This document shows positions 3,161 through 25,361 of a stretch of 37,266 nt of DNA, piece by piece. A program made the translations under genes and the position numbers. The stretch's first letter is position 1. The number at the start of each line of letters is the position of its first letter. Source of the DNA: Chloroflexota bacterium (GTDB lineage: Bacteria; Chloroflexota; Anaerolineae; VGOG01); assembly GCA_016875995.1 (NCBI GenBank), contig VGOG01000010.1:1-37266 (forward strand), in the 5' to 3' direction. The notes under the pieces are model-generated. The model had not been told where the DNA came from and ran no database searches. It saw nothing but the letters and a program-made list of their open reading frames with translations.

Positions 3161-4459
3161 ATGGCGAAAAAACGCAATGCTAAGGAGAGAGTCGTCGTCA
3201 CCGGCCTGGGGGCCATCACTCCTCTGGCACTGACTGCCGAGGAGACCTGGCAGGGGCTCGTCGCCGGTCGAAGCGGTATAGGCCGCGTCAGCCAGTTCGA
3301 TCCCAGTGACTACCCTACCCAGATCATCGCCGAGGTGAAAGGTTTCAACGCAGGAGACTACATGGATCCCAAAGAGGCCAAGCGTATGGCCCGCTTCAGC
3401 CAGTTCGCCGTGGCCGCGACCAAGATGGCCCTGGAGGACGCGGGTCTCGTTGTTAACGAGGAGAACAGCGAGGAGATAGGAGTGCTGTTAGGCAATTCCA
3501 TCGGGGGTATAGAGGAGACAGAGAAAGCCTGCCGTGTCATGTTCGAGCGCGGTGGCATGCGCATATCGCCCTTCTACGTAGTGATGATGCCCCCTAATCT
3601 AGCTGCCTTCCAGGTGGCTTACACTTACGGCATCAAGGGTTACAATTCCACCGTCTCTACCGCCTGCGCCGCTGGCACGCAGGCCATCGGCGAGGCGGCA
3701 GAGGTCATCCGCCGGGGGAAGGCCACGGTGATGGTGACCGGCGGGACCGAAGCCGGCGTTTGTGAGCTGGCCCTGGCCGTCTTCTGCGTGGGGCGAGCCT
3801 ACTCCACCCGCAACGACGAGCCGGAGCGGGCCAGTCGCCCCTTCGACAAAGATCGCGACGGCTTCGTCGGCGGCGAGGGAAGCGGCATCCTGATCCTGGA
3901 GCGTCTGGATCACGCTCTGGCGCGAGGGGCTCGCATCTATGCCGAGGTGCTGGGCTGCGGTGCTTCCAACGATGCTTACCATCTCATAGCGCCCGATCCC
4001 GAAGGGTTGGGGGCGGCGCGAGCCATACGCTGGGCGTTGGAAGACGCGGGCGTGGAACCCGGCGAGGTGGACTACATCAATGCCCACGGCACCGGTACCC
4101 CCCTGGGCGACGTTTCGGAGACCCTGGCCATCAAAAAAGTCTTCGGCGAGCATGCCTACCGCGTGGCCATCAGTTCCACCAAGTCCATGATCGGCCACCG
4201 CGTGGCCATCAGTTCCACCAAGTCCATGATCGGCCACCTGTGGGGGGCCGCGGGGGCGGTGGAGTCCATCGCCTGCATCCTCTCCATCCGGGACAACATC
4301 ATCCATCCCACCATCAACCTGGAGACTCCCGACCCCGATTGCGACCTGGACTACGTCCCCAACGTGGCCCGCAAGGCCCAGGTGGACATTGCTATCTGTA
4401 ACTCCTTCGGCCTCGGGGGGCAGAATGCGTGCGCGGTGTTTGGTAGGGTTAGGGACTAG
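3161..4459 (+). CDS. fabF: Beta-ketoacyl-ACP synthase II with an internal 13-residue duplication
   Basis: This is a KAS II condensing enzyme, elongating acyl-ACP with malonyl-ACP. The catalytic Cys is C169 (VSTACAAGTQ), the first active-site His is H309 (NAHGTGTPLGD), and the C-terminal glycine-rich loop is SFGLGGQNA. AGGAGGG precedes the ATG. The segment RVAISSTKSMIGH, which holds the catalytic Lys and second His, occurs twice in a row (residues 334-346 and 347-359), from an exact 39-bp tandem duplication. The protein is 432 residues, about 13-20 longer than usual. The extra copy may disturb the active site; it may also be a recent mutation or an assembly error. The final residues and stop codon fall inside a short-repeat element. 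Confidence 0.95.
   Translation: MAKKRNAKERVVVTGLGAITPLALTAEETWQGLVAGRSGIGRVSQFDPSDYPTQIIAEVKGFNAGDYMDPKEAKRMARFSQFAVAATKMALEDAGLVVNEENSEEIGVLLGNSIGGIEETEKACRVMFERGGMRISPFYVVMMPPNLAAFQVAYTYGIKGYNSTVSTACAAGTQAIGEAAEVIRRGKATVMVTGGTEAGVCELALAVFCVGRAYSTRNDEPERASRPFDKDRDGFVGGEGSGILILERLDHALARGARIYAEVLGCGASNDAYHLIAPDPEGLGAARAIRWALEDAGVEPGEVDYINAHGTGTPLGDVSETLAIKKVFGEHAYRVAISSTKSMIGHRVAISSTKSMIGHLWGAAGAVESIACILSIRDNIIHPTINLETPDPDCDLDYVPNVARKAQVDIAICNSFGLGGQNACAVFGRVRD
4160..4237 (+). repeat. Exact 39-bp tandem duplication inside fabF
   Basis: Copy one is 4160-4198 and copy two is 4199-4237; they are identical base for base and in frame. Each encodes 13 residues including the STKSMIGH catalytic block. 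Confidence 0.97.
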
Positions 4460-13238: not shown

Positions 13239-15866
13239 TCACCCTATCAACACCCGCACGCTGTTGCTCCGACACCGGGGGCATAAGCGCTCTTCGTCGG
13301 CAGCAGGGTCGAAGGTCACAGCCCACTTGTTGCCACAGCGCATACAGAGCATTGTGGCTGCCGTCGGTTGCTTCAGCCGGTCAAGGGCGCTGCGGATGGG
13401 GGTCTTGGCTTCTTGCAACGCCTGGCGGGTCTGCTCTATTTCCTCCGCGGTGACCCCCGCCCACAGCTCGTCCAGCTCCTGCATCACTTTGGCCCACTTC
13501 TGTCCCTCGGCAGCGCTGACCCAGTCCAACTGCAGGCGCTCAGGGCGCACTCCCTGTTTCTCCAAACCCTCCCACAACGCATCCACCCGACGCACGGTCT
13601 GGCGGTTGGCGTTGATGTAGTGGCAATCGGCGTAGTGACAGCCGGACACCAACACCAGCGGCGCTCCCTTGCGGAAGGAGTACCACACGAAATCGGGATC
13701 AACCCGTCCGGAGCACATGGTTCGTATCAGGCGGGCATTGGGCGGATACTCCATGCGCCCCACCCCCGCCGTGTCCGCCCCAGCATAGGAGCACCAGTTG
13801 CAAGCAAAAACCACGATGGGCGGCCTGGCCGCCCCAGGTTGGAGATTGGAGGTTGGAGGACGGAGGTTGGAACATCCAACTTCCAACTTCCAACTTCCAA
13901 CTTCCAACATGGCATCTATCTGGGCGTAGATGGCCTGGTCGGAGAAGTGGCGCATGGCGATGGCCTGGTACTGACACTCGGCGGCGCAGGTGCCGCACCC
14001 GGCACAGGCGGCGGAGATCACCTGGGCGGGCTGCTTCTTCTCCCAGATGATAGCTCCATACGGACAAACCGGGGCACACAGCCCGCAGGCCTTGCACAGG
14101 GCCTCGTCCACCACGGCGGTGATGGCCTCCACTTTGATGGTGGGAGCGCTCAGCAGGATCTCGGCGCGAGAGGCAGCAGCAGAGGCCTGAGTCACCGAGT
14201 CTTTGATGTCCTTGGGCGACTCGGCACAGCCGGCCAGGAAGACACCCTTCGTCGGCGCGTCCACCGGCTTCAGCTTGGGATGCGATTCCATGAAGAAGCC
14301 ATCGGGGGTGCGGGAGAGGGTGAGGAGCTGCTTGACCACGTCGCTGTCGTGGCGGGGCACGGCGCCGATGGAGAGGATCAGCATGTCCAGCTCGTGCTCC
14401 TCCAGCCGCCTGGCGGTGGTATTCTCCACCACGACCCGCAGGTTGCGCGTTTCGGGATCCTCCATCACCTCGCCCGGCAGGCCCCTGATGTACTTCACTC
14501 CCGCCGCTCTGGAGCGCATGTAAAGGTCCTCGAAGCCTTTGCCGAAGGCCCGCATGTCCATGTAGAAGACAGTGAGGTCAATGTCTGGGTAGTGGTCTTT
14601 GAGCAGGAGACTGTCTTTGACGGTGTTCATGCAGCAGATGTTGGAACAGTAGGGATTGCCCCGCCCGTCCTGGGAGCGAGAGCCGACGCACTGCACGAAA
14701 CCAATGCGCTGGGGCGTCCGCCGATCGGTGGGGCGGACTAAATGGCCTTCGGTGGGACCACCGGCGGAGATCAGCCTCTCGAACTCCAGGCTGGTGATGA
14801 CGTTCTCGTAGCGGGTGTAGCCGTACTCGTCCATCTCTGTGGGGTCATAGGCTTCCATCCCCGTGGCCACGATTACGGCTCCCACCTCAAATTCGATGAT
14901 CTCATCCCTCATGTCGAAACTAATACACTTCTTGTCGCAAGCCTCCATGCATTTGCCACAGGCGATGGGGTTATCGCCCAGACATTCCTGCATGTTGATG
15001 ATGTACGAGGAAGGCACAGCCTGGGGAAAGGGGATGTAGATGGCGCGGCGGGTGGAGAGGCCCGTCTGGAACTCGTCGGGCTTGACGATTGGGCAGACCG
15101 GGACGCAGTCGCCGCAGGCCGTGCACTCCTTCTCGTCCACGTAGCGGGCCTTTTTTCGTACTCTGGCCTTGAAGTTGCCCACGTAGCCGGAGATGTCCTC
15201 TATTTCGCTATAGGCCAACAGCTCGATCCTGGGATGCCGACCGACATCCATCATCTTGGGACCGAGTATTCATATACTACAGTCCATGGTGGGATAGGTC
15301 TTGTCCAGCTTAGCCATGATCCCACCGATGGAGGGCTCCTTCTCCACGAGATAGACCTGATGGCCAGCGTCGGCCAGATCGAGCGAGGCCTGGATGCCGG
15401 CCACCCCGCCGCCGATGACCAGCACGGCGTCGGTGACGGGCAATTGCTCCTCGGTCTGGGGGAGGAGCCAGTGGGCCCGCGCCACCGCCACCCGCACGAT
15501 GTCCTCGGCCTTGCGGGTGGCCGCCTCCCGATCGCGGAGGTGTACCCAGGAGCAATGCTCGCGGATGTTGGCCATCTCCAGAAGGTAGGGGTTAAGGCCC
15601 ACCTCCTGAATGCAGTTGCGGAAAGTGGGCTCGTGCAGGCGGGGCGAACAGGAGGCCACCACCACCCGGTTGAGCTTGTGTTCCACCACGTGGCGCTTGA
15701 TCTCCTGCTGGCCGGGGTCGGAGCAGGTGTACTTGTTGCGAACCGCCGCCACCACCTCGGGCAGCGTCGCCGCGTACTCCCGCACCGCCTCGGTATCCAG
15801 GCTGCCGGCGATATTCAGCCCACAATCGCAGACGAAAACGCCGATGCGTAGGTCATCTCTAGGCAT
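13239..15866 (-). CDS. hdrA: HdrA-MvhD fusion flavoprotein, predicted selenoprotein
   Basis: Read as one 875-residue protein, with TGA at 15272-15270 as selenocysteine 199. Both sides are in the same frame, and the sequence runs TMDCSI[13 protein letters not shown]; HdrA homologues have Cys or Sec at this place. Order: HdrA N-terminal domain (1-140), FAD-binding VIGGGVAG (151-158), C-x-x-Sec (196-199), [12 protein letters not shown] (248-259), further cysteines [14 protein letters not shown] part two ([12 protein letters not shown]), two 4Fe-4S motifs (about 589-630), a repeat-encoded linker (652-677), MvhD domain (about 682-795) and a zinc ribbon CMRCGNK/CPRCRSN (about 840-865). HdrA is the flavin-based electron-bifurcating subunit of Hdr complexes; MvhD links it to an electron donor. 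ATG 15866 follows GGGAGG. The alternative is a nonsense mutation. Confidence 0.9.
13836..13911 (-). repeat. Palindromic heptamer array inside hdrA
   Basis: TTGGAGA/TTGGAGG units (13839-13869) face inverted CTTCCAA units (13879-13909) across the short spacer AACAT. The array is translated in frame as a linker rich in LEVGSWK-type residues between the ferredoxin and MvhD domains. Confidence 0.85.
15232..15249 (-). promoter_or_regulatory. Predicted bacterial SECIS hairpin
   Basis: On the minus strand, GGATGTC (15249-15243) pairs with GGCATCC (15238-15232) in a 7-bp stem with one G-U pair, closing a GGTC tetraloop (15242-15239). The loop begins 27 nt after the TGA. Bacterial SECIS elements, such as that of E. 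coli fdhF, present a GGUC-type loop for SelB at about this distance. Confidence 0.75.
15270..15272 (-). other. In-frame TGA predicted to encode selenocysteine
   Basis: The codon is TGA on the minus strand, in frame with both flanking halves of hdrA. It aligns with the last Cys/Sec of the family's DCSxC block before the PKM(M/V)xVxxHP motif. Confidence 0.85.
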
Positions 15867-15883
15867 GTGCACCTCCCAAAACC

Positions 15884-17592: not shown

Positions 17593-18753
17593 CTAACCCA
17601 GCGCTTCGTCCACCAAAGTAACCAGGTCCCGGATCTCCATCCCAACCTCCTCACCCAGTCTCACGTCGTCCATGGCGCACTTGAAATGGATCTGGCACTT
17701 GGCGCAGGCGGTGATCAATAGCTCGGCGCCGGTGGCCCTGACTTCGCGCAGGCGGTCTACCTGGATCTGCTTGTTGATGGCCCCACAATTGGTCCAGCAA
17801 CTGGTGCCGCAGCACAGGGCGTTCTTGCCGCTGTGCTCCATCTCCACCAGCTTTAGCCCCAGGGCCTCGATCACCTGGCGAGGCGCGTCATAGACGCCCA
17901 GGTGGCGACCCAGGCGGCAGGGGTCGTGATACGTGATGCGTGATGCGTGATGCGTGATGCGTGATGCGTGATACGTGATGCGTGATTCGTTCCTCGCCAG
18001 CTTGTCGGCCAGTAGTTCCGTGATGTGGATCACTTCCATTTCCAGGTCGCCCACGTGAGCGGGGTAGTCAATTTTCAGTGTGCGTGCACATTCAGGGCAG
18101 GTGGTGACGATGCGCCTGGCTCCCGTCTCTCGCAGCATGGCGATGTTCAGCTCGGCCAGCTTGCGGAAGTGGGCCACGTCCCCCTCCCACAGCAGGTCGT
18201 GGCCACAACAGCGCTCGTTGTCCAGGACGATGGGCTCGATGCCCAGGCGGTTGAGCACCCTGACGGCGCTCTGGGCGATCTCCACTCCCTGGGCACCGAT
18301 CTTGTCGAAGAGGACGTCGTAATAGGGCAGGCAGCCGACGAAGTACACGGTATCGGAGTTGGTGGAAACCTTGAGGTCCTCGTCGAGCCAATCCAGGCGG
18401 TTTTGCTTCAGTTCGGGCGAAGCCATCATCCGCATCCAGGTCTGGATGGCCTCACCGTGGGAGCAGAGCCCCTCTTCGCCCGTCCCTCGCGCCAAAGCCC
18501 GCAGATCGCGGATGAACTCCACGTAATGGACATCCGACGGGCAGCGCGTCGAGCAGTGCTGGCAAGTGAGACAAGACCAGAGCAGCACATCGGTCAACAG
18601 CTCCTCCCCTTCACCCCATAAGGCTCTCTCCACCGTCAGGCGAGGCGAGTAGGCTGGTTCCCGCCGCGAGATGGGGCAGACCGAAGTGCACTTGCCACAC
18701 TCCAGGCAGTAGTAGGCTTTTGTGCTTTTGATGATCTGCTGAATGGCTTGCAT
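17593..18753 (-). CDS. HdrC-HdrB fusion (HdrD-like) iron-sulfur protein
   Basis: The 386-residue protein begins with an HdrC-like ferredoxin region, CLECGKCTSVCP (16-27) and CLTCQHCSTRCP (about 61-72). Two CCG domains of the HdrB type follow: VGCLPYYD with NERCCGHDLLW (about 138-188) and DPCRLGRH with ALCCGTSCWTNCG (about 278-322). In HdrB the CCG motifs hold noncubane 4Fe-4S clusters that reduce disulfides; in bacteria the true acceptor is usually unknown. The start lies 2 bases after the mvhD stop. Residues about 256-276, SRITYHASRITHHASRITYH, come from nine 7-bp repeats just before the second CCG motif. It is probably the terminal reductase of the Hdr complex encoded here. Confidence 0.92.
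   Translation of the reverse strand: MQAIQQIIKSTKAYYCLECGKCTSVCPISRREPAYSPRLTVERALWGEGEELLTDVLLWSCLTCQHCSTRCPSDVHYVEFIRDLRALARGTGEEGLCSHGEAIQTWMRMMASPELKQNRLDWLDEDLKVSTNSDTVYFVGCLPYYDVLFDKIGAQGVEIAQSAVRVLNRLGIEPIVLDNERCCGHDLLWEGDVAHFRKLAELNIAMLRETGARRIVTTCPECARTLKIDYPAHVGDLEMEVIHITELLADKLARNESRITYHASRITHHASRITYHDPCRLGRHLGVYDAPRQVIEALGLKLVEMEHSGKNALCCGTSCWTNCGAINKQIQVDRLREVRATGAELLITACAKCQIHFKCAMDDVRLGEEVGMEIRDLVTLVDEALG
17925..17987 (-). repeat. Nine-copy heptamer array (CGTGATG) inside the HdrC-HdrB gene
   Basis: Nine head-to-tail 7-bp units, CGTGAT followed by G, A or T, span exactly 63 bases and keep the frame. Any change not a multiple of three units would shift it. Confidence 0.95.
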
Positions 18754-18803
18754 CCCTAATCCCTAGTCCCTGGTCCCTGATCCCTAGCCCCTAATCCCTC
18801 CCC
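18752..18803 (-). repeat. TCCCTAA heptamer half-array between mvhD and the HdrC-HdrB gene
   Basis: TCCCTAA, TCCCTAG, TCCCTGG, TCCCTGA, TCCCTAG, CCCCTAA, TCCCTCC units overlap the stop of mvhD and encode its C-terminal residues GARDQGPGTRD. Confidence 0.85.
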
Positions 18804-19163
18804 AAACTCCATCACCTTCTGGACGAACGCCTCCCCTTCCCCCACCCCCAACCAGTCCAGCTTCAGCCGCTCGTCCCCAATGCCCAGGAGATGGGCGATG
18901 GCCCTGGTCTCCTGGAACAGCTCCTCGGCTCGTTGATTGCCGAATTCGTAGTGACACTCTCCAGGCGGGCAGCCCAGGAGCAAGACGCCGTCCGCTCCCA
19001 GCTCGAATGCCTTGAGGATGAGGCCCGGGTGCAGCCGTCCCAGGCACATCACCTTGATGGGCCGCACGCTGGCCGGATAGGCCAATCGCTTGTAGCCGGC
19101 CGCCTCCAGCGCGCTGTAAGCATTCCAGTTGCAGGTGAACACAACGATGCGAGGTTCTGTCAT
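18756..19163 (-). CDS. mvhD: MvhD/FlpD-type 2Fe-2S electron-transfer subunit
   Basis: This 135-residue protein matches the methyl-viologen-reducing hydrogenase delta family: VFTCNWNAYSALEAAG (about 7-22), VMCLGRLHPGLILKAFELGADGVLL (about 38-63) and LGCPPGECHYEFGNQRA (about 63-79), with conserved Cys for a 2Fe-2S cluster. It carries electrons between a donor module and HdrA. Its start overlaps the stop of the upstream HdrA-like gene by 4 bases, so it is translationally coupled. It is a paralogue of the MvhD domain fused to the selenoprotein HdrA. The last ten residues (ARDQGPGTRD) come from a repeat element. Confidence 0.92.
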   Translation of the reverse strand: MTEPRIVVFTCNWNAYSALEAAGYKRLAYPASVRPIKVMCLGRLHPGLILKAFELGADGVLLLGCPPGECHYEFGNQRAEELFQETRAIAHLLGIGDERLKLDWLGVGEGEAFVQKVMEFGEGLGARDQGPGTRD

Positions 19164-22100
19164 CTCACCAACTCAACTAACATCGCTTCGATCTGCCTGT
19201 CCGTGGAATAGCCCGCCGTAATCGCCCCGGACGGACAGTGGGCAGCGCAGGTACCGCAGCCCAGGCAGGCAGCCTCGTTCACCTGGGCAACGAGGACGCC
19301 CCGCCTATCTTCACACACTTCGACGGCACGGAATTCGCAAATCTCCTGACAGGTGCCGCAGGCCCGACAGCGGGCAGGGTCCACGTGAGCGACGACGGGC
19401 TCGACCACAGTCCAGCCCTTGCCCAGCAGAGCAGCAACCCTGGAGGCTACGGCCAGGCCCCAGACTTGTGGATTAGATATTGGATATTGGATATTGGAAG
19501 GTGGAGGAAAGATACCCCGACGTCCAACTTCCAACTCCCAACTTCCAACTTCCAATTCAGCCTCAGGGGTCAGGACGACAGCCCCTACCCTCAACTCCCG
19601 CTGACCACCTTGTGCCAGTACGACGGCTGTGAAGTTGCCTAAAGAGCCACTCACGGCCAGAGGCGGAGCTTCGCTCTGAAATACTCGAAACCCTTGAGCC
19701 CTCAATGCATCGGCGCAGGCTACACCAGCCCTCCCATTCCCGACCACCAGCACACTTTGATCGAGGGGAACGGTGCTCCTGACCCTGGCCTCATCCTGGC
19801 GCACCTTGGCTACGACGGAGGCAATGAGACTCCTGGCCTTAGCTGTAGCCGCAACCGGCTCACCGGCATGAACCCAGGCGCATTGCTCCCGTATGTTCAC
19901 AAACTCATAACCAACGGACGTTTCACGTTTCACGTTTGACGTTTCACGTTTCACGTTTGACGTTTCACGTTTCACGTTTGACGTTTCACGTTTCACGTTT
20001 GACGTTTCACGTTTCACGTTTGACGTTTCACGTTTGCACCGCACCCGCTGGTAGGTACAGCTATCGCACACCTGGTCGAGCGAGCAGCAAGAGCAAGCAG
20101 CCAGCACCACCCGGTCCAGGCCCGCCTCGACGATGGCCCGCTGGATGGAAGCCGCCCCCTCCTCGTGGCAAGCGAAGGGGATATCATTAGCGAAAGCTAC
20201 ACCAGGCAAACGACGAATTTCGCTTACCACCGCATCCACATCCACGACGTCGCCAATCTCGCCGCCGCAGCGGCAGACGAAGACACCGATCCTGGAGGGG
20301 GCGGGAAGGGACGGAAAAACAGGAAAGGCAGGGAAAATGCGATAGGCAGCCAGATCGGCCATGACTTTGGCCGCAATAGCGGAAGCACTCAACACATCAT
20401 CAGGCTCAACCCAATACTCCCCCTCTCCCCTGCTCCCTTGCTCCCCTGCTCCCCTGCTCCCCCGCTCCCCTGCTCCACCGCTCTCTGCCCAAATAACCGC
20501 TCCCACGTCCAGGCTCAGGCGTTTCCCCTGCGCGTTGTGGTCAATGGCCGCCGGCTCGCAGACTTTGACACACTCCAGGCATTCGGAGCAGACGGCGCAG
20601 GAGAGGCAGCGCTCCGCCTCGGCCACGGCCTCCTCCTCGCTGAGACCCAGGTTGATCTCAACGAAATCCACTCTCTTTGTCAGGGATAGCCTAGGCATTT
20701 GTGCCCTGGCCTCCGGCTCGACGACGGGTGGGGTGTAGTACTCAACCTCGGATATATCGGGTGGCCACAGCATACGCCCGGCCGCCGGGTCCTCGCCCCT
20801 CAGGTATCGGGCGATGGACTCGGCGGCCCGCTTGCCGGCGGCGATGGCCTCGATGACCGTGGCCGGCCCCGTCACCGCATCGCCGCCAGCGAAAACGCCC
20901 TCTAAATTGGTCTCCAGCGTTACGGGATCCGCGGCGATCCAATCTCCAGCTTTCAAGCCCCCCCTCAGTCCCCCCCAACTTTGGGGGGGAAGTTCTGCCG
21001 TCCAATCTCCAACCTCCAACACCTGGCCGATGGCCACGATCACCGTATCCGCCTCGACCACGAACTCCGAACCGCGGACGGGGATGGGCCGCCTCCGCCC
21101 GCTTCCGTCGGGCTCCCCCAGTTCCATGCGCAAGCACTCCAGGCCCGTCACCTGTCCATTCGCGCCCAACACCCTGGTCGGTGTGGCCAGGAAGTGAAAG
21201 GCGATGCCCTCTTCTTCAGCCTCCTCGATCTCCCAGGGGTGGGCAGGCATCTCTTCGCGGGAACGACGGTAGAGGATGGTGACCTGCTGCGCTCCCAGTC
21301 GCCTGGCGACCATGGCCGAATCAATGGCCACGTTGCCTCCGCCAACCACCAGCACTTTCTGGCCGACGGTGACCTCCTGGCCCAGGTTCACCGCCCGCAG
21401 GAAATCAACGCCGTGAAGCACGCCGGCCAGATCCTCTCCCTCCACGTTCAGACTGCGGCTGCCATGAGCGCCCACGGCCACGAACACGGCATCGTAACCT
21501 CTCCTGAGATCGTCCAGAGATAAATCGCCGTTGGGACCGATGGCGGTGTTGGTGCAGATTTCCACCCCCAAATCCTCGATAGCCCTGATCTCGCTTTGCA
21601 GGACATCTCTGGGCAAACGATACGTGGGGATACCCACCGCCATCATGCCGCCAGCCACGGGCAGTGCCTCGAAGACAGTGACGGGATAGCCTTCACGGGC
21701 CAGGAAGCAGGCGGCGGTGAGGCCGGCGGGACCGCTGCCGACGATGGCAACTTTGGCTTGGATATTGGGTATTGGGTATTGGGTATTGGACTTTGGACGT
21801 GGGACTTTGTCTGCCACGAATCGCTTGAGGTACTCGATGGCAATCGGCTGGTCGTGCTCGGCCCGCCGACAGGCCGCCTCGCAGGGGTGATGGCAGACGC
21901 GGCCACAGACGGCGGGGAAGGGGATAGCTTCGCGGATCAGGGCCAGGGCTTCGGCGAATTTGCCCTGGGCGATGAGGGCCACGTAGCCCTGGACGTGGAT
22001 GCCGGCCGGGCAGGCGACTTTGCAGGGGGCGGGCCCTCGCTTTTGGATGGCAAAAATGCTCGGCACGGCGTGATCCGGCTTATAGATGGCTCTATCAGCG

Positions 22101-22579
22101 TCCAGGCGTCCAGGCGCCTTAGCGTCCATGCGTTCGCTGAGGCGCTGGGACGCTACGACGCCAGGACGCTGTACCGTCACCGGACAGACAGGGATGCAAT
22201 CCCCGCAAGCGGTGCATTTGGCCAGGTCCACGTAGCGGGGGTGCTGCTGCACCTCGACGCGTAAATCGCCCCGCTCCCCTTTCATCCCCCCCAAAGTTGG
22301 GGGGGAAAAGAGGGGGGGCGTCACTTCAGCCTGGGTAAACAAGCGGATGTTTGGGTGTTTGATTGCCTCCAAGAACAGGGAATCAGGAAATCGGGGAATC
22401 GGGGAATCAGGCATTTTCTCCTTTCCTGATTCCCTAATCCCCGATTCCCTGTCCTGCACACTGCCCTCAAGAAAAGGCGACCTCTCCACCAGGCAGACTT
22501 CCAGGCCCGAATTGGCCAGATCGAGGGCCGCCTGCACGCCGGCCATGCTTCCGCCGACGATCAACACCGCTTTGGTCAT
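19160..22579 (-). CDS. Giant HdrA/GltD composite flavo-iron-sulfur oxidoreductase
   Basis: The start is ATG 22579 (GGGGAG upstream), giving 1139 residues. Order: HdrA-type FAD motif LIVGGSMAGVQAA (about 6-18); ferredoxin CTACGDCIPVCP (about 120-131); Fer4_20 domain CKVACPAGIHVQGY and CGRVCHHPCEAAC (about 184-250); GltD-like NADPH/FAD reductase with IVGSGPAGLTAA and VVGGGNVAIDSAM (about 277-593); CLSCAVCSECLECVKVC (about 655-671); HdrA N-terminal-like domain IGVFVCRCGG (from about 762); Rossmann VVGNGRAGVA (about 940); two 4Fe-4S motifs (about 1070, 1107). The GltD part suggests NAD(P)H as partner. The CxxU region of HdrA is missing, replaced by repeat sequence. At least eight in-frame short-repeat tracts interrupt it at domain borders. 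It is probably the bifurcating hub of the kor-hdr operon. Confidence 0.9.
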   Translation of the reverse strand: MTKAVLIVGGSMAGVQAALDLANSGLEVCLVERSPFLEGSVQDRESGIRESGKEKMPDSPIPRFPDSLFLEAIKHPNIRLFTQAEVTPPLFSPPTLGGMKGERGDLRVEVQQHPRYVDLAKCTACGDCIPVCPVTVQRPGVVASQRLSERMDAKAPGRLDADRAIYKPDHAVPSIFAIQKRGPAPCKVACPAGIHVQGYVALIAQGKFAEALALIREAIPFPAVCGRVCHHPCEAACRRAEHDQPIAIEYLKRFVADKVPRPKSNTQYPIPNIQAKVAIVGSGPAGLTAACFLAREGYPVTVFEALPVAGGMMAVGIPTYRLPRDVLQSEIRAIEDLGVEICTNTAIGPNGDLSLDDLRRGYDAVFVAVGAHGSRSLNVEGEDLAGVLHGVDFLRAVNLGQEVTVGQKVLVVGGGNVAIDSAMVARRLGAQQVTILYRRSREEMPAHPWEIEEAEEEGIAFHFLATPTRVLGANGQVTGLECLRMELGEPDGSGRRRPIPVRGSEFVVEADTVIVAIGQVLEVGDWTAELPPQSWGGLRGGLKAGDWIAADPVTLETNLEGVFAGGDAVTGPATVIEAIAAGKRAAESIARYLRGEDPAAGRMLWPPDISEVEYYTPPVVEPEARAQMPRLSLTKRVDFVEINLGLSEEEAVAEAERCLSCAVCSECLECVKVCEPAAIDHNAQGKRLSLDVGAVIWAESGGAGERGSRGAGEQGSRGEGEYWVEPDDVLSASAIAAKVMADLAAYRIFPAFPVFPSLPAPSRIGVFVCRCGGEIGDVVDVDAVVSEIRRLPGVAFANDIPFACHEEGAASIQRAIVEAGLDRVVLAACSCCSLDQVCDSCTYQRVRCKRETSNVKRETSNVKRETSNVKRETSNVKRETSNVKRETSVGYEFVNIREQCAWVHAGEPVAATAKARSLIASVVAKVRQDEARVRSTVPLDQSVLVVGNGRAGVACADALRAQGFRVFQSEAPPLAVSGSLGNFTAVVLAQGGQRELRVGAVVLTPEAELEVGSWELEVGRRGIFPPPSNIQYPISNPQVWGLAVASRVAALLGKGWTVVEPVVAHVDPARCRACGTCQEICEFRAVEVCEDRRGVLVAQVNEAACLGCGTCAAHCPSGAITAGYSTDRQIEAMLVELVR
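19472..19557 (-). repeat. Palindromic heptamer array in the HdrA/GltD gene (tract 8)
   Basis: ATATTGG units (19475-19499) face inverted CTTCCAA units (19523-19555). It encodes about residues 1008-1036, in a linker before the C-terminal ferredoxin domain. Confidence 0.85.
19918..20036 (-). repeat. 17-copy ACGTTTC heptamer array in the HdrA/GltD gene (tract 7)
   Basis: Seventeen head-to-tail 7-bp units in a 21-bp higher-order pattern (ACGTTTC, ACGTTTC, ACGTTTG) encode six tandem KRETSNV-type heptapeptides, residues about 848-888. Confidence 0.95.
20417..20484 (-). repeat. TGCTCCCC octamer array in the HdrA/GltD gene (tract 6)
   Basis: About seven 8-bp units encode the Gly/Glu/Ser/Arg-rich linker [20 protein letters not shown] (residues about 699-721). 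The same octamer occurs in the two PA14-containing genes at 29604 and 33281. Confidence 0.9.
20957..20992 (-). repeat. C7/G7 palindrome in the HdrA/GltD gene (tract 5)
   Basis: CCCCCCC-CTCAGT-CCCCCCC-AACTT-TGGGGGGG forms a strong short hairpin and is read as LPPQSWGGLRGGLK. Confidence 0.85.
21757..21796 (-). repeat. TATTGGG heptamer array in the HdrA/GltD gene (tract 4)
   Basis: GATATTGG, GTATTGG, GTATTGG, GTATTGG units encode SNTQYPIPNIQ, just before the GltD FAD motif. Confidence 0.85.
22097..22171 (-). repeat. GCGTCCA palindromic array in the HdrA/GltD gene (tract 3)
   Basis: GCGTCCAG, GCGTCCAG and GCGTCCAT face the inverted GGGACGCT/AGGACGCT units. It encodes SQRLSERMDAKAPGRLDAD, inserted relative to the homologous loop of the second HdrA. 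Confidence 0.75.
22276..22318 (-). repeat. C7/G7 palindrome in the HdrA/GltD gene (tract 2)
   Basis: CCCCCCCAAAGTTGGGGGGG (22286-22305) plus flanking C- and G-runs; encodes TPPLFSPPTLGGMKGE. Confidence 0.85.
22376..22453 (-). repeat. Palindromic GGGAATCA element in the HdrA/GltD gene (tract 1)
   Basis: Left arm GGGAATCAGGAAATCGGGGAAT..., loop region CATTT, then inverted TTCCTGATTCCCTAATCCCC. It is the same family as the intergenic elements but is translated in frame as DRESGIRESGKEKMPDSPIP (residues about 43-68). Confidence 0.9.
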
Positions 22580-22596
22580 AGTGTCTCCCCACTTGG

Positions 22597-22678
22597 TGAT
22601 CAGGAGATCAGGAAATCGGGGAATCAGGCATTTCCTCATTCCCTGATTCCCTGATCACTAATCCCTGATCCCTGATCC
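22597..22678 (-). repeat. Palindromic short-repeat element with CATTT loop
   Basis: GATCAGGAGATCAGGAAATCGGGGAATCAGG (split over 22599-22629), loop CATTT, then inverted CCTCATTCCCTGATTCCCTGAT... . It contains the stop codon of korG (22658-22660). Confidence 0.88.
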
Positions 22679-23203
22679 GTACTCATACCCCTTCTCGAAG
22701 GCCCTCAGGTTCAGCTCCTCGGTCCCCTTGGGAACTGAAGAAAGAATTGCCTCTCGCATGGCCTCCACGGAGACCACGTCGGTCACAGCGGCAAAGAAGC
22801 CCAACATGACGATGTTGGCCACGATCTTCCGTCCCAGTTCCTCAGCCAGGCGCGTAGCCGGGACCGAGAGGAGCTTCACATCGCCAACCAGATCATCTAT
22901 TTCCACCAGGTCCTCGTCCACGATGAGCAGGGCTCCATCGCTCAGAGTGGGAGCATATTTATAGTAGGCCTCCTGCGACATCACAACCAGGATGGATGGA
23001 GCAATGAGATGAGGGTAGTGAACGGGCTCGTCGGAGATGATCACCTGAGCACTGCAAGCCCCGCCCCGTGACTCAGGCCCATAGCTCTGAGTGAAGGTGG
23101 CCTCTTTCTTATCGTGGATGGCCGCCGCTGTGCCTATTATGTAACCAGAGAGGACGATGCCTTGCCCTCCGAAACCAGTTAGCCGGATCTCTGTTCGACC
23201 CAT
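22658..23203 (-). CDS. korG: 2-oxoacid:ferredoxin oxidoreductase gamma subunit
   Basis: The 181-residue protein begins MGRTEIRLTGFGGQGIVLSG, the typical gamma-subunit start, followed by TQSYGPESRGGACSAQVIIS (about 39-58) and a YYKYAP block. The gamma subunit completes the KorABDG-type complex that oxidises 2-oxoglutarate to succinyl-CoA, reducing ferredoxin, or runs in reverse. ATG 23203 follows CGGAGGAG; upstream in-frame codons are repeat sequence. The last residues GSGIRD and stop come from a repeat element. Neighbouring korB, korA, korD and sucCD support 2-oxoglutarate as substrate. Confidence 0.93.
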   Translation of the reverse strand: MGRTEIRLTGFGGQGIVLSGYIIGTAAAIHDKKEATFTQSYGPESRGGACSAQVIISDEPVHYPHLIAPSILVVMSQEAYYKYAPTLSDGALLIVDEDLVEIDDLVGDVKLLSVPATRLAEELGRKIVANIVMLGFFAAVTDVVSVEAMREAILSSVPKGTEELNLRAFEKGYEYGSGIRD

Positions 23204-23220
23204 GACTCCTCCGTTTTTCC

Positions 23221-23300
23221 AGTAATCAGCTACCAGGGAATCAGGAAATGAGGAGATGCCTGATTCCCTGATCACTGATTTCCTGATTACTGATCACTGA
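23221..23300 (-). repeat. Palindromic short-repeat element
   Basis: AATCAGC/CAGGGAATCAGGAAATGAGG left arm, loop AGATG (23254-23258), inverted CCTGATTCCCTGATCACTGATTTCC right arm (split from 23259). It overlaps the korB stop (23287-23289), giving the tail SDQ. Confidence 0.88.
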
Positions 23301-24171
23301 CACCTTTAGCCAATGCTCTCCGGCAAAAATCGAGAAACGTGGGCTTCTCGACATCCACAAACACGCCTTCGATGATCTCCCCACCTAGCTCGATATCGGC
23401 TTCCTTGGGATCAATGCCGTGTTTTATGACCCCCTTGTCGTGGTAATACTGCATCTGGGCCAGGCCCGTGCGCTGCTTGTTCCAACGGCCATATAGAGTG
23501 GGACAAGGGGAGATGATTTCCACAAAGCTGAACCCCCTTTTGTGCAGCGCATCGAGGATAGACTTCTCCAGGCGCCGCACGTGGAGGGCCGTCCAGCGGG
23601 CCACGTACACTGCGCCGCTGGCCGCCGCCAGATACGGAAGGTTGAAAGGGTACTCGAAACAGCCGTAGGGCGAAGTGCTGGTCGTAGCTCCCACAGGCGT
23701 AGTGGGCCCCACCTGCCCCCCGGTCATGCCATAGTTGAAGTTGTTGACGCAAATGATCGTCATATCAACGTTGCGGCGAGCGGCGTGGATAAGGTGATTG
23801 CCGCCGATGGCGATCAGGTCGCCGTCGCCGCTGAAGACCACCACTTTGAGCTCCGGATTGGCCAGCTTCAGCCCCGTGGCGAAGGGAATCGCCCGCCCGT
23901 GGGTGGTGTGGAAGGAATCCAGCTTAACGTAGCCAGCCACCCGTCCCGTGCAGCCAATTCCCGATACCACTGCCACCTTGTCTAGATTCAGCCCTGACTT
24001 CTCCAGCGCCTTAATAAAACAGGTCAAAGCCACCCCGATGCCACAACCTGAGCACCAGATGTGAGGCAGCCGGTCCTCTCGCAACAAATAATCCATGGGG
24101 TGACTATCAGGTTTCGAGTTTTGGGTTTCGGGTTTCAGGTTCACTGCTTGCTTGTTGCCCTCTTTCGGCAT
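23287..24171 (-). CDS. korB: 2-oxoacid:ferredoxin oxidoreductase beta (TPP) subunit
   Basis: The protein has LPHIWCSGCGIGVALTCF near the N-terminus, GDGDLIAIGGNHLIHAARRN (TPP/Mg motif) and NNFNYGMTGGQVGPTTPVG, all standard for the KOR beta subunit, which holds thiamine diphosphate and an iron-sulfur cluster. Length (294) is normal except for an N-terminal extension of about 25 residues (NLKPETQNSKPDSH) encoded by GGTTTCG-type repeats. ATG 24171 has AAGGTG upstream and is preferred over GTG 24180; ATG at residue 26 (MDYLLRED) resembles the usual family start but has no ribosome binding site. Confidence 0.93.
   Translation of the reverse strand: MPKEGNKQAVNLKPETQNSKPDSHPMDYLLREDRLPHIWCSGCGIGVALTCFIKALEKSGLNLDKVAVVSGIGCTGRVAGYVKLDSFHTTHGRAIPFATGLKLANPELKVVVFSGDGDLIAIGGNHLIHAARRNVDMTIICVNNFNYGMTGGQVGPTTPVGATTSTSPYGCFEYPFNLPYLAAASGAVYVARWTALHVRRLEKSILDALHKRGFSFVEIISPCPTLYGRWNKQRTGLAQMQYYHDKGVIKHGIDPKEADIELGGEIIEGVFVDVEKPTFLDFCRRALAKGVSDQ
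24107..24143 (-). repeat. GGTTTCG short-repeat array in the korB 5' end
   Basis: AGGTTTCG, AGTTTTGG, GTTTCGG, GTTTCAGG units encode most of the korB N-terminal extension. Confidence 0.7.
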
Positions 24172-24187
24172 CTCATTCACCTTCTAA

Positions 24188-24220
24188 CACTGATCACCGA
24201 TCACTGATCACTGATCGCTG
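24188..24220 (-). repeat. CACTGAT repeat at the korA 3' end
   Basis: CACTGATCACCGATCACTGATCACTGATCG units overlap the korA stop (24201-24203) and write its tail ISDQ. Confidence 0.8.
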
Positions 24221-25361
24221 CCCTTCTAATCGCTTCCAGCACTTTCTGCGGATCGTGGATGTCGCCGCCGGCGTGGCGGACGAGAATCACCTCGGCCTGT
24301 CCAGCGGCGCAGCGCTCCACTTCCAGGGCGATCTGGCCAAAGTTTATCTCTGGCACGACGAAAGCTTTCACCCTCCCGGCCAGTTGTCTGATCCGCTCCT
24401 CAGGAAAGGGCCAGACGGTTATCAACCGCAAAGTGCCCACTCTTATGCCCTCCCTGCGAGCCAACTCCACAGGCCAGAGGGCGGTGCGAGCGGAGATGCC
24501 GTAGGAGCAAACCACCACTTCAACGTCCTCTAAGCCCTCCTCTTCGAGCTGGATTATATCACCCTTGTTCTTTCTGATCTTCTCGACCAGGCGGGTGATC
24601 AATCTCTCCTGGGTTTCGGCATCCATGCCAGGGTAGCCATACTCGTCGTGGGTAAGTCCCGTGATGTGAAAGCGGTAGCCTTCGCCAGCGTTGGCCATAG
24701 GCGGCACGAGATCGTCGTCGGCCTTGTAGGGTAGATATTCACTGGGAGGGACAGTGGGCTTACGGCGCGGAAAGGCTTCGACCCTTTCTGGCGGGGGGAT
24801 GACCACTTTCTCCGTCATGTGGCCCACTTCGGCGTCGGTCATGACCAGCACCGGGGTGCGGTATTTCTCGGACAGATTGAAGGCGTGGATGGTCAGGTCG
24901 AAAAGCTCTTGAGGGGAGCTGGGAGCCAGGGCGATGATCTCGTAGTCGCCGTGCGAGCCCCAGCGAGCCTGCATCATGTCGCCCTGCCCCACCAGAGTGG
25001 GCAACCCCGTGGAGGGGCCGCCCCGCTGCACGTTAACCAGCACGCAAGGGGTCTCGGTCATGATACCCAGGCCCAGGTTCTCCATCATCAAGCTGAAGCC
25101 GGGGCCCGAGGTGGCGGTCATGGCCTTGACCCCGCCCCACGAAGCTCCCAGCACGGCAATCATGGAGGCCAATTCATCCTCCATCTGGATATAGGTCCCG
25201 CCTACCTGGAGCATTCGCTCAGCCATGCGTTCGGCCACCTCGGTAGCTGGGGTGATGGGGTAGCCAGCGAAGAAACGGCAACCGGCGGAGATGGCCCCCT
25301 CGGCGCAGGCAACATCGCCCATCATGAAGAACTCGCCAGTCAAAATCCCCTCTTCGTTCAC
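24201..25361 (-). CDS. korA: 2-oxoacid:ferredoxin oxidoreductase alpha subunit
   Basis: The 386-residue protein shows AGCRFFAGYPITPATEVAE (about 26-44), QMEDELASMIAVLGASWGG (about 59-77), TATSGPGFSLM and QRGGPSTGLPT, the alpha-subunit substrate/TPP-binding motifs, followed by the C-terminal domain II. The GTG start at 25361 has GGGAGGGGAG upstream and overlaps the korD stop by 4 bases. With beta, gamma and ferredoxin-like delta subunits adjacent, and sucCD upstream, 2-oxoglutarate is the likely substrate. Confidence 0.94.
   Translation of the reverse strand: MNEEGILTGEFFMMGDVACAEGAISAGCRFFAGYPITPATEVAERMAERMLQVGGTYIQMEDELASMIAVLGASWGGVKAMTATSGPGFSLMMENLGLGIMTETPCVLVNVQRGGPSTGLPTLVGQGDMMQARWGSHGDYEIIALAPSSPQELFDLTIHAFNLSEKYRTPVLVMTDAEVGHMTEKVVIPPPERVEAFPRRKPTVPPSEYLPYKADDDLVPPMANAGEGYRFHITGLTHDEYGYPGMDAETQERLITRLVEKIRKNKGDIIQLEEEGLEDVEVVVCSYGISARTALWPVELARREGIRVGTLRLITVWPFPEERIRQLAGRVKAFVVPEINFGQIALEVERCAAGQAEVILVRHAGGDIHDPQKVLEAIRRAAISDQ

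Follow-up and report, generated by a model that had tools for sequence, protein, structure and literature searches.

Dispersed short repeats have probably settled recurrently in the loops and linkers of an HdrA/GltD fusion gene from Chloroflexota

Introduction

Short repeats within or near bacterial genes have several described precedents. Rickettsia palindromic elements (RPEs), as described in the review PMC10969869 (which cites Ogata et al. 2000, 2002), are small palindromic repeats that lie in frame within unrelated metabolic genes and encode a peptide compatible with protein function. Other described repeats are tandem: genome-dispersed, G-rich heptamers (GGGNATC and GGGGA(C/T)T) occur in Xanthomonas and Nostoc (PMC4692102), and TAACTGA heptamers, direct repeats of a single unit sequence with a patchy phylogenetic spread over marine Beggiatoaceae and Cyanobacteria, lie mostly just upstream of start codons and are proposed to be regulatory sites, with their orientation-dependent stop codons and their tolerance between modules also discussed (PMC4679880). 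Here, we describe a gene of a Chloroflexota bacterium (Anaerolineae; VGOG01) in which palindromes and arrays of 7- or 8-nucleotide (nt) units share one open reading frame (ORF). The window, i.e., the whole stretch of DNA that was analyzed, comprises positions 1 to 37,266 of contig VGOG01000010.1 (assembly GCA_016875995.1), and the gene, at 19160-22579 on the minus strand, encodes a fusion of HdrA, GltD (NfnL-like), and Fe-S modules, as delimited by ORF, Pfam, and orthologue alignment. An original prediction, made from the sequence of the window, had proposed that at least eight short-repeat tracts interrupt this gene. Our reading, to which we assign a probability of roughly 0.77, is that dispersed short repeats have been acquired or expanded time and again in its loops and linkers, by recurrent, tolerated insertion and not by targeting of the gene.

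The locus shares features with each of these systems. The palindrome is likened to RPEs by description, not by sequence: it is present in many copies (42 of its core), sits in frame in unrelated genes, and is absent from homologues. Unlike RPEs, it consists of G/C runs, is found alongside 7/8-nt arrays, and has a Chloroflexota host; at ~46 bp, against ~150 bp for RPEs, it is RPE-like and not classed as an RPE. The arrays resemble the GGGNATC-type heptamers in being dispersed tandem 7-nt units, with the related AGGGATC, AGGGACT, and GGGAATC all present, but differ in that more than 40% of them lie wholly within genes and many unit families occur together. With the TAACTGA repeats they have heptameric direct repeats in common, although here the units are many and are found inside genes. 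As in contingency (phase-variable) simple sequence repeats, tandem repeats occupy a coding region, but expansion is apparently in multiples of three, and frame-shifting variants are not in evidence. Finally, with regard to miniature inverted-repeat transposable elements, the palindrome contains an inverted repeat, no clear target-site duplication was seen, and there is only one exact empty site. Within the literature searched, we found no paper on such a palindrome or on heptamer/octamer arrays in Chloroflexota or Anaerolineae.

Results and discussion

Eight in-frame tracts of two kinds

The frame at 19160-22639 (minus strand) is unbroken across all eight repeat sites, which agrees with the original prediction that every tract is in frame, and heptamer, octamer, and palindrome units can be distinguished, as it had also held. 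The tracts are of two kinds: arrays of 7/8-nt units, several of which have inverted arms, and a palindrome built of G/C runs, present in two copies. Tandem Repeats Finder (TRF), used to call arrays in the window, reports them in this gene at 19472-19498 together with 19516-19555, and at 19917-20035, 20420-20483, 21758-21796, and 22376-22411.

Numbered from the 5′ end of the gene, and all on the minus strand, the tracts are as follows. Tract 1 (22367-22456), recognized from the TRF array at 22376-22411 and the codon alignment, is a hairpin with GGGAATC/octamer arms (peptide ...DRESGIRESGKEKMPDSPIPRFPDS) that is absent in the orthologue. Tract 2 (22267-22320; site 22276) is a copy of the C7AANNTTG7 palindrome, with the peptide PPLFSPPTLGGMKGE; a diverged copy exists in the sister genus and none elsewhere. 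Tract 3 (22097-22174), missing from every homologue compared, is an AGCGTCCN-type octamer hairpin that inserts ~21 residues, and its octamer-like arms (AGCGTCC.../...GGACGCT) were read directly from the sequence. Tract 4 (21757-21800) consists of (CCAATAN) heptamers, yields the peptide SNTQYPIPNIQ, and occupies the linker preceding the flavin adenine dinucleotide domain of GltD. Tract 5 (20956-20999; site 20957) is the second C7AANNTTG7 palindrome. Tract 6 (20417-20486) is an GAGCAGGG octamer array (peptide GSRGAGEQ) that is absent in orthologues. Tract 7 (19917-20035) contains 5.7 identical copies (TRF, 100% matches) of a 21-nt superunit, AAACGTG AAACGTG AAACGTC, encoding RETSNVK. Tract 8 (19472-19555) has the inverted heptamer arms (TTGGAAG)n and (CCAATAT)n, which encode LEVGSWELEVG and SNIQYPISN, and both sister genera have different arrays there. 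A possible decayed, C/T-rich tract (FPAFPVFPSLPAPS; 20296-20340, minus strand) is common to relatives and coincides with a local minimum of predicted model confidence (predicted local distance difference test [pLDDT] of 68 for residue block 751-760).

Sister genera often have other repeats at occupied sites

The gene was aligned at the codon level with its closest complete orthologue (G002:C54, i.e., L033, from Chloroflexota CSMAG_2462, the sister-genus genome G002). Outside the tracts, the two are 84% identical, with a ratio of nonsynonymous to synonymous substitution rates (dN/dS) of 0.145; for aligned tract-region codons, the values are 52% and 0.64. To judge from these sequences, the fusion is apparently an ordinary, working electron-transfer enzyme whose gene is intact and under purifying selection. 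The tracts cover ~190 residues, but the net gain over this orthologue is ~99 (1,139 versus 1,040 residues, counted from the shared Met), short of the "well over 150" added residues of the original prediction.

At the codon level, the orthologue is without the tracts at 22376, 22097, 20417, and 19918. The sites at 21757 and 19472 hold arrays in both genes, differing in unit and length; the palindrome at 22276 is present in both and in no other homologue compared; and the site at 20957 has the G/C palindrome here and a TTGGAAG heptamer array in the orthologue, such that, by alignment, the palindrome of tract 5 is a nested or replacing insertion in the site of that array. The proposal that the tracts look like insertions thus stands in that they are insertions or expansions relative to homologues, but not all eight are private: the 22276, 21757, 20957, and 19472 sites are, as aligned, also occupied in the sister genus. 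Across distant homologues, the tracts are not conserved. More broadly, where sister-genus orthologues were at hand for in-gene arrays, 9 of 16 have an array at the same place, mostly of other units.

That several sites hold some array in both sister genera could also mean that the tract peptides are functional linkers or interaction segments of an HdrA complex, kept by selection; other redox genes of the neighborhood carry tracts as well, such as the CGTGATG heptamer array (peptide ITHHASR) at 17925-17990 in the nearby HdrB/CCG gene, which lies on the same strand and whose orthologue has a shorter array at that site. We regard this explanation as unlikely: the peptide family at a given site differs between sister genera, dN/dS in aligned tract codons reaches 0.64, and the same peptides are found in unrelated genes, including those for glycosyltransferases and tetratricopeptide repeat (TPR) proteins.

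The co-occupied sites bear on the assembly too. The genome is a 414-contig draft, and since assemblers fail at repeats, copies could have been inserted or mis-sized in a short-read assembly of a repeat-rich metagenome. An artefact of this kind is highly improbable given that all eight tracts are in frame between orthologous flanks, that arrays also stand at several of these sites in the assembly from the sister genus, and that an exact insertion in proS (see below) is in frame as well.

Some linkers are reoccupied beyond the sister genera. The linker of tract 4 has 7/8-nt arrays in L034 (Anaerolineae), in L052, in the HdrA/GltD paralogue L148, and in the GltD paralogues L022 and L185, and the loop of tract 5 also carries a repeat in the GltD paralogue L004/L185. 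Separately, L059 (Chloroflexi NC_groundwater_1012) contains seven heptamer arrays across two HdrA-type ORFs (1,663 and 1,576 aa), making it another Chloroflexota lineage with a like pattern.

Arrays occur genome-wide, with the HdrA/GltD gene as an extreme case

Genome statistics were compiled in stretches totaling 1.79 Mb (42% of the draft), with 1,433 simple codon-usage gene calls. There, we counted 321 arrays with a 7- or 8-nt period, 134 within genes, 111 spanning gene ends, and 76 intergenic; relative to the coding share, arrays are strongly depleted in genes, though 134 of 321 lie wholly in them. Most are degenerate. Strong inverted partners are found in the flanks of 33% of the arrays between genes and of 14% of those within genes (versus ~2% expected), and since only part of the arrays have one, we abandoned the idea that each tract is a hairpin element. 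With a strict octamer pattern, this genome gave eight matches and two relatives a single match each; so narrow a pattern could not map the family.

By a strict criterion, the HdrA/GltD gene has five arrays and ties with an unrelated Wzy/TPR gene for the most among the 1,433. When the 134 in-gene arrays were placed at random over these genes, the maximum reached at least five per gene in only 2 of 2,000 trials; therefore, the enrichment is not a matter of chance. Homologues of the HdrA/GltD/Fe-S type together hold 16 arrays in 31 kb (0.52 per kb), versus 118 in 1,521 kb elsewhere (0.078 per kb) and 0.14 per kb in other genes above 600 aa. The original prediction had offered a preferred target or a tolerant host, and these numbers fit the second. 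The first, as a property of this gene, is not supported: the repeats are genome-wide, the Wzy/TPR gene is equally loaded, and the same linkers are independently occupied in paralogues and other lineages. The gene is an extreme case among several, an outlier that, we argue, owes its load to its length, its multidomain make-up, and its many permissive linkers and not to targeting.

All homologues show variation in the length of their interdomain linkers, and the tracts might then be ordinary low-complexity sequence unrelated to dispersed DNA repeats. This is the least probable of the explanations considered. The array units match, as DNA, those of arrays found at many other positions in the genome, some of them intergenic, with full identity; array peptides (RETSNVK, SNIQYPI, LEVGSWK, GSRGAGEQ, and GTRDKGL) recur in unrelated proteins; and the palindrome forms a DNA family of 42 copies.

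Two observations concern arrays at gene ends. The 111 arrays that overlap called gene starts or stops, a third of the total, may set or shift start or stop codons. At L170:5519-7543 (plus strand), a single open frame contains hisG and hisC, with an AGGGAYC heptamer array (GTRDQGPGTRDQGPG) as the join; in relatives that have both, each is a gene of its own. Before hisC, an ATG and a GGAGG resembling a Shine-Dalgarno sequence persist, so this may be read-through and not a true fusion.

A G/C palindrome is not depleted in coding sequence

The palindrome of tracts 2 and 5 is a ~46-bp dyad whose core (CCCCCCCAANNTTGGGGGGG) has 42 copies in this genome, 19 in sister genus G002, and at most two in any other of 300 genomes sampled from the phylum. 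Arrays and palindrome have both multiplied in this Chloroflexota family and are genome-wide repeat families. When its motif was relaxed slightly, the sampled stretches held 42 copies, 37 of them within called genes, a proportion that matches the coding share (binomial p 0.83); therefore, the palindrome, unlike the arrays, is not depleted in coding DNA. At least 50 codons remain on each side of 33 of these 37 in-gene copies. Host genes include purH (L170:15690-15732, in frame), proS for prolyl-tRNA synthetase (L217:7971-8011, in frame), ABC transporter genes, and a znuA-type gene. In proS, which is 88% identical to its sister-genus counterpart, the copy is an exact 33-nt in-frame insertion that none of eight aligned relatives has.

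A bolder and more tentative view, which we consider somewhat less probable than its negation, is that this stop-free palindrome is still spreading and, helped by the 7/8-nt arrays, enters coding as readily as noncoding DNA, forming in-frame loops in dozens of proteins, including the essential ProRS and PurH, and linkers at domain and gene junctions. It would then be a second, independent case of RPE-like, protein-coding selfish DNA, outside the obligately intracellular Rickettsia. On this palindrome, one can test whether protein-coding palindromes of the Rickettsia type have had a repeated origin.

Seven- and eight-nucleotide units keep one peptide in all frames

Neither 7 nor 8 shares a factor with 3, and a pure array of either period therefore yields one repeating peptide in all three frames, as translation of 15 units confirmed (15/15). 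It follows that a unit without stops on its sense strand is open however it lands, and only the overall length of the array has to be divisible by three. This is a simple reason why such units suit coding sequence. AAACGTG alone would read KRET*NV, but tract 7 has AAACGTC every third unit, exactly at the would-be TGA, and wherever an array of this family lies within a gene in sense orientation (8/8), its stop-phase base is C or T. An open frame by itself demands that RETSNVK arrays contain no stops; that tract 7 repeats its 21-nt superunit exactly, however, points to expansion in whole-codon steps. A lag of 21 or 24 nt gives the best self-identity in 22 of 75 in-gene arrays, versus 16 of 111 outside genes (Fisher p 0.011).

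Gaining or losing one 7- or 8-nt unit within an ORF inherently shifts the frame, and tract 7, being perfect and long, is slippage-prone, such that the arrays could act as contingency loci that toggle the enzyme. We find this very unlikely, as the arrays are mostly degenerate, all eight tracts are in frame, and the one perfect array is a superunit with a phase-locked, stop-avoiding base. Phase variation is also not known to be typical of core electron-transfer genes.

Tracts coincide with predicted flexible segments

An AlphaFold model of the HdrA/GltD protein from a 45-sequence alignment (mean pLDDT 85.3; predicted template modeling score 0.82) replaced a run with nine sequences (pLDDT 60.5). 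All six stretches with pLDDT below 50 fall within tracts: residues 47-57 and 59-62 in tract 1, 142-152 and 155-159 in tract 3, 703-709 in tract 6, and 870-885 in tract 7. The remaining tracts are on local minima, so every tract lies in or over one. In the model, the repeat sites thus coincide with segments of predicted flexibility, in keeping with the proposed placement at loops and linkers, although low scores are to some extent expected for inserted residues, to which no homologue in the alignment corresponds. The reoccupation of the same linkers in paralogues and other lineages lends independent support.

Proposed turnover, and points that weigh against it

Taken as recurrent, tolerated insertion, the data could be accommodated as follows. 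Dispersed repeats would enter or arise in genes, the first arrival at a new site likely being by mobilization in trans for the palindrome and by recombination or slippage for the arrays. Purifying selection would clear events that break the frame or disrupt the core; surviving arrays might lengthen by slippage in 21/24-nt steps, be replaced, or decay, and occupied permissive loops would continue to turn over. The case shows that repeat DNA can supply loops and linkers, time and again, to a bacterium's core metabolic enzymes, and, with sister genera providing replicate outcomes at the same linkers, tolerance and turnover become measurable per site. Repeat expansion as a mode of linker evolution, as originally suggested, is plausible for the affected linkers.

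Several points weigh against this account. Length alone does not account for all of the excess of arrays that HdrA-type genes show relative to other long ones, and the gene calls are of a simple codon-usage type covering 42% of a draft genome. Palindrome copies use the three frames unevenly (21/11/5), which pure neutrality would not predict; no clear target-site duplications surround them, and the proS site is the only exact empty one. No transposase was linked to palindrome or arrays, though no search aimed at transposases was made. The pLDDT is only a proxy for flexibility, with residues lacking homologues scoring low regardless, and the account draws on DNA comparison and a structural model.

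Genomic setting and other features of the window

The gene probably starts at the ATG at 22579, although the ORF extends to 22639: homologues share the first residues (MTKAVL), and GGGGAG lies just 5′ of this ATG. Pfam finds an N-terminal HdrA-like segment, Fer4_20 plus Pyr_redox_2 (the GltD/NfnL module), and a C-terminal HdrA-like segment with 2[4Fe-4S], and the top solved relatives include NfnA, NfnI alpha, the glutamate synthase small chain, and HdrA chains. Three 2-oxoacid:ferredoxin oxidoreductase genes (22658-25361) come before it on its strand, and an mvhD gene (FlpD; 18756-19163) and the CCG (HdrB-type) gene come after it; from these neighbors, it plausibly belongs to a ferredoxin-linked electron-transfer operon. 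Just upstream, at 22630-22678, TRF and the sequence identify a hairpin array (GGGAATC/CCTGATT) of the same family as tract 1.

The second HdrA gene of the window (13239-15872, minus strand), proposed earlier to lack such tracts, turned out to carry one: TRF calls a heptamer hairpin at 13836-13908 (minus strand) in the domain linker of this HdrA-MvhD fusion, where it adds ~21 to 25 residues that are missing from seven homologues. That the tract caused the gene fusion was rejected, as relatives without the tract are also fused and the fusion is older. The gene has one in-frame TGA, at DCSI(U)ILGPKM, where HdrA has its Cys, and L002 and L027 share the context as DCST(U)ILGPKM; from its sequence, it looks like a putative selenocysteine HdrA fused to MvhD.

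Elsewhere in the window, at 4158-4238 (plus strand), a beta-ketoacyl synthase gene contains an exact 39-bp tandem duplication (2.1 copies, 100%) around AISSTKSMIG, near the active site.
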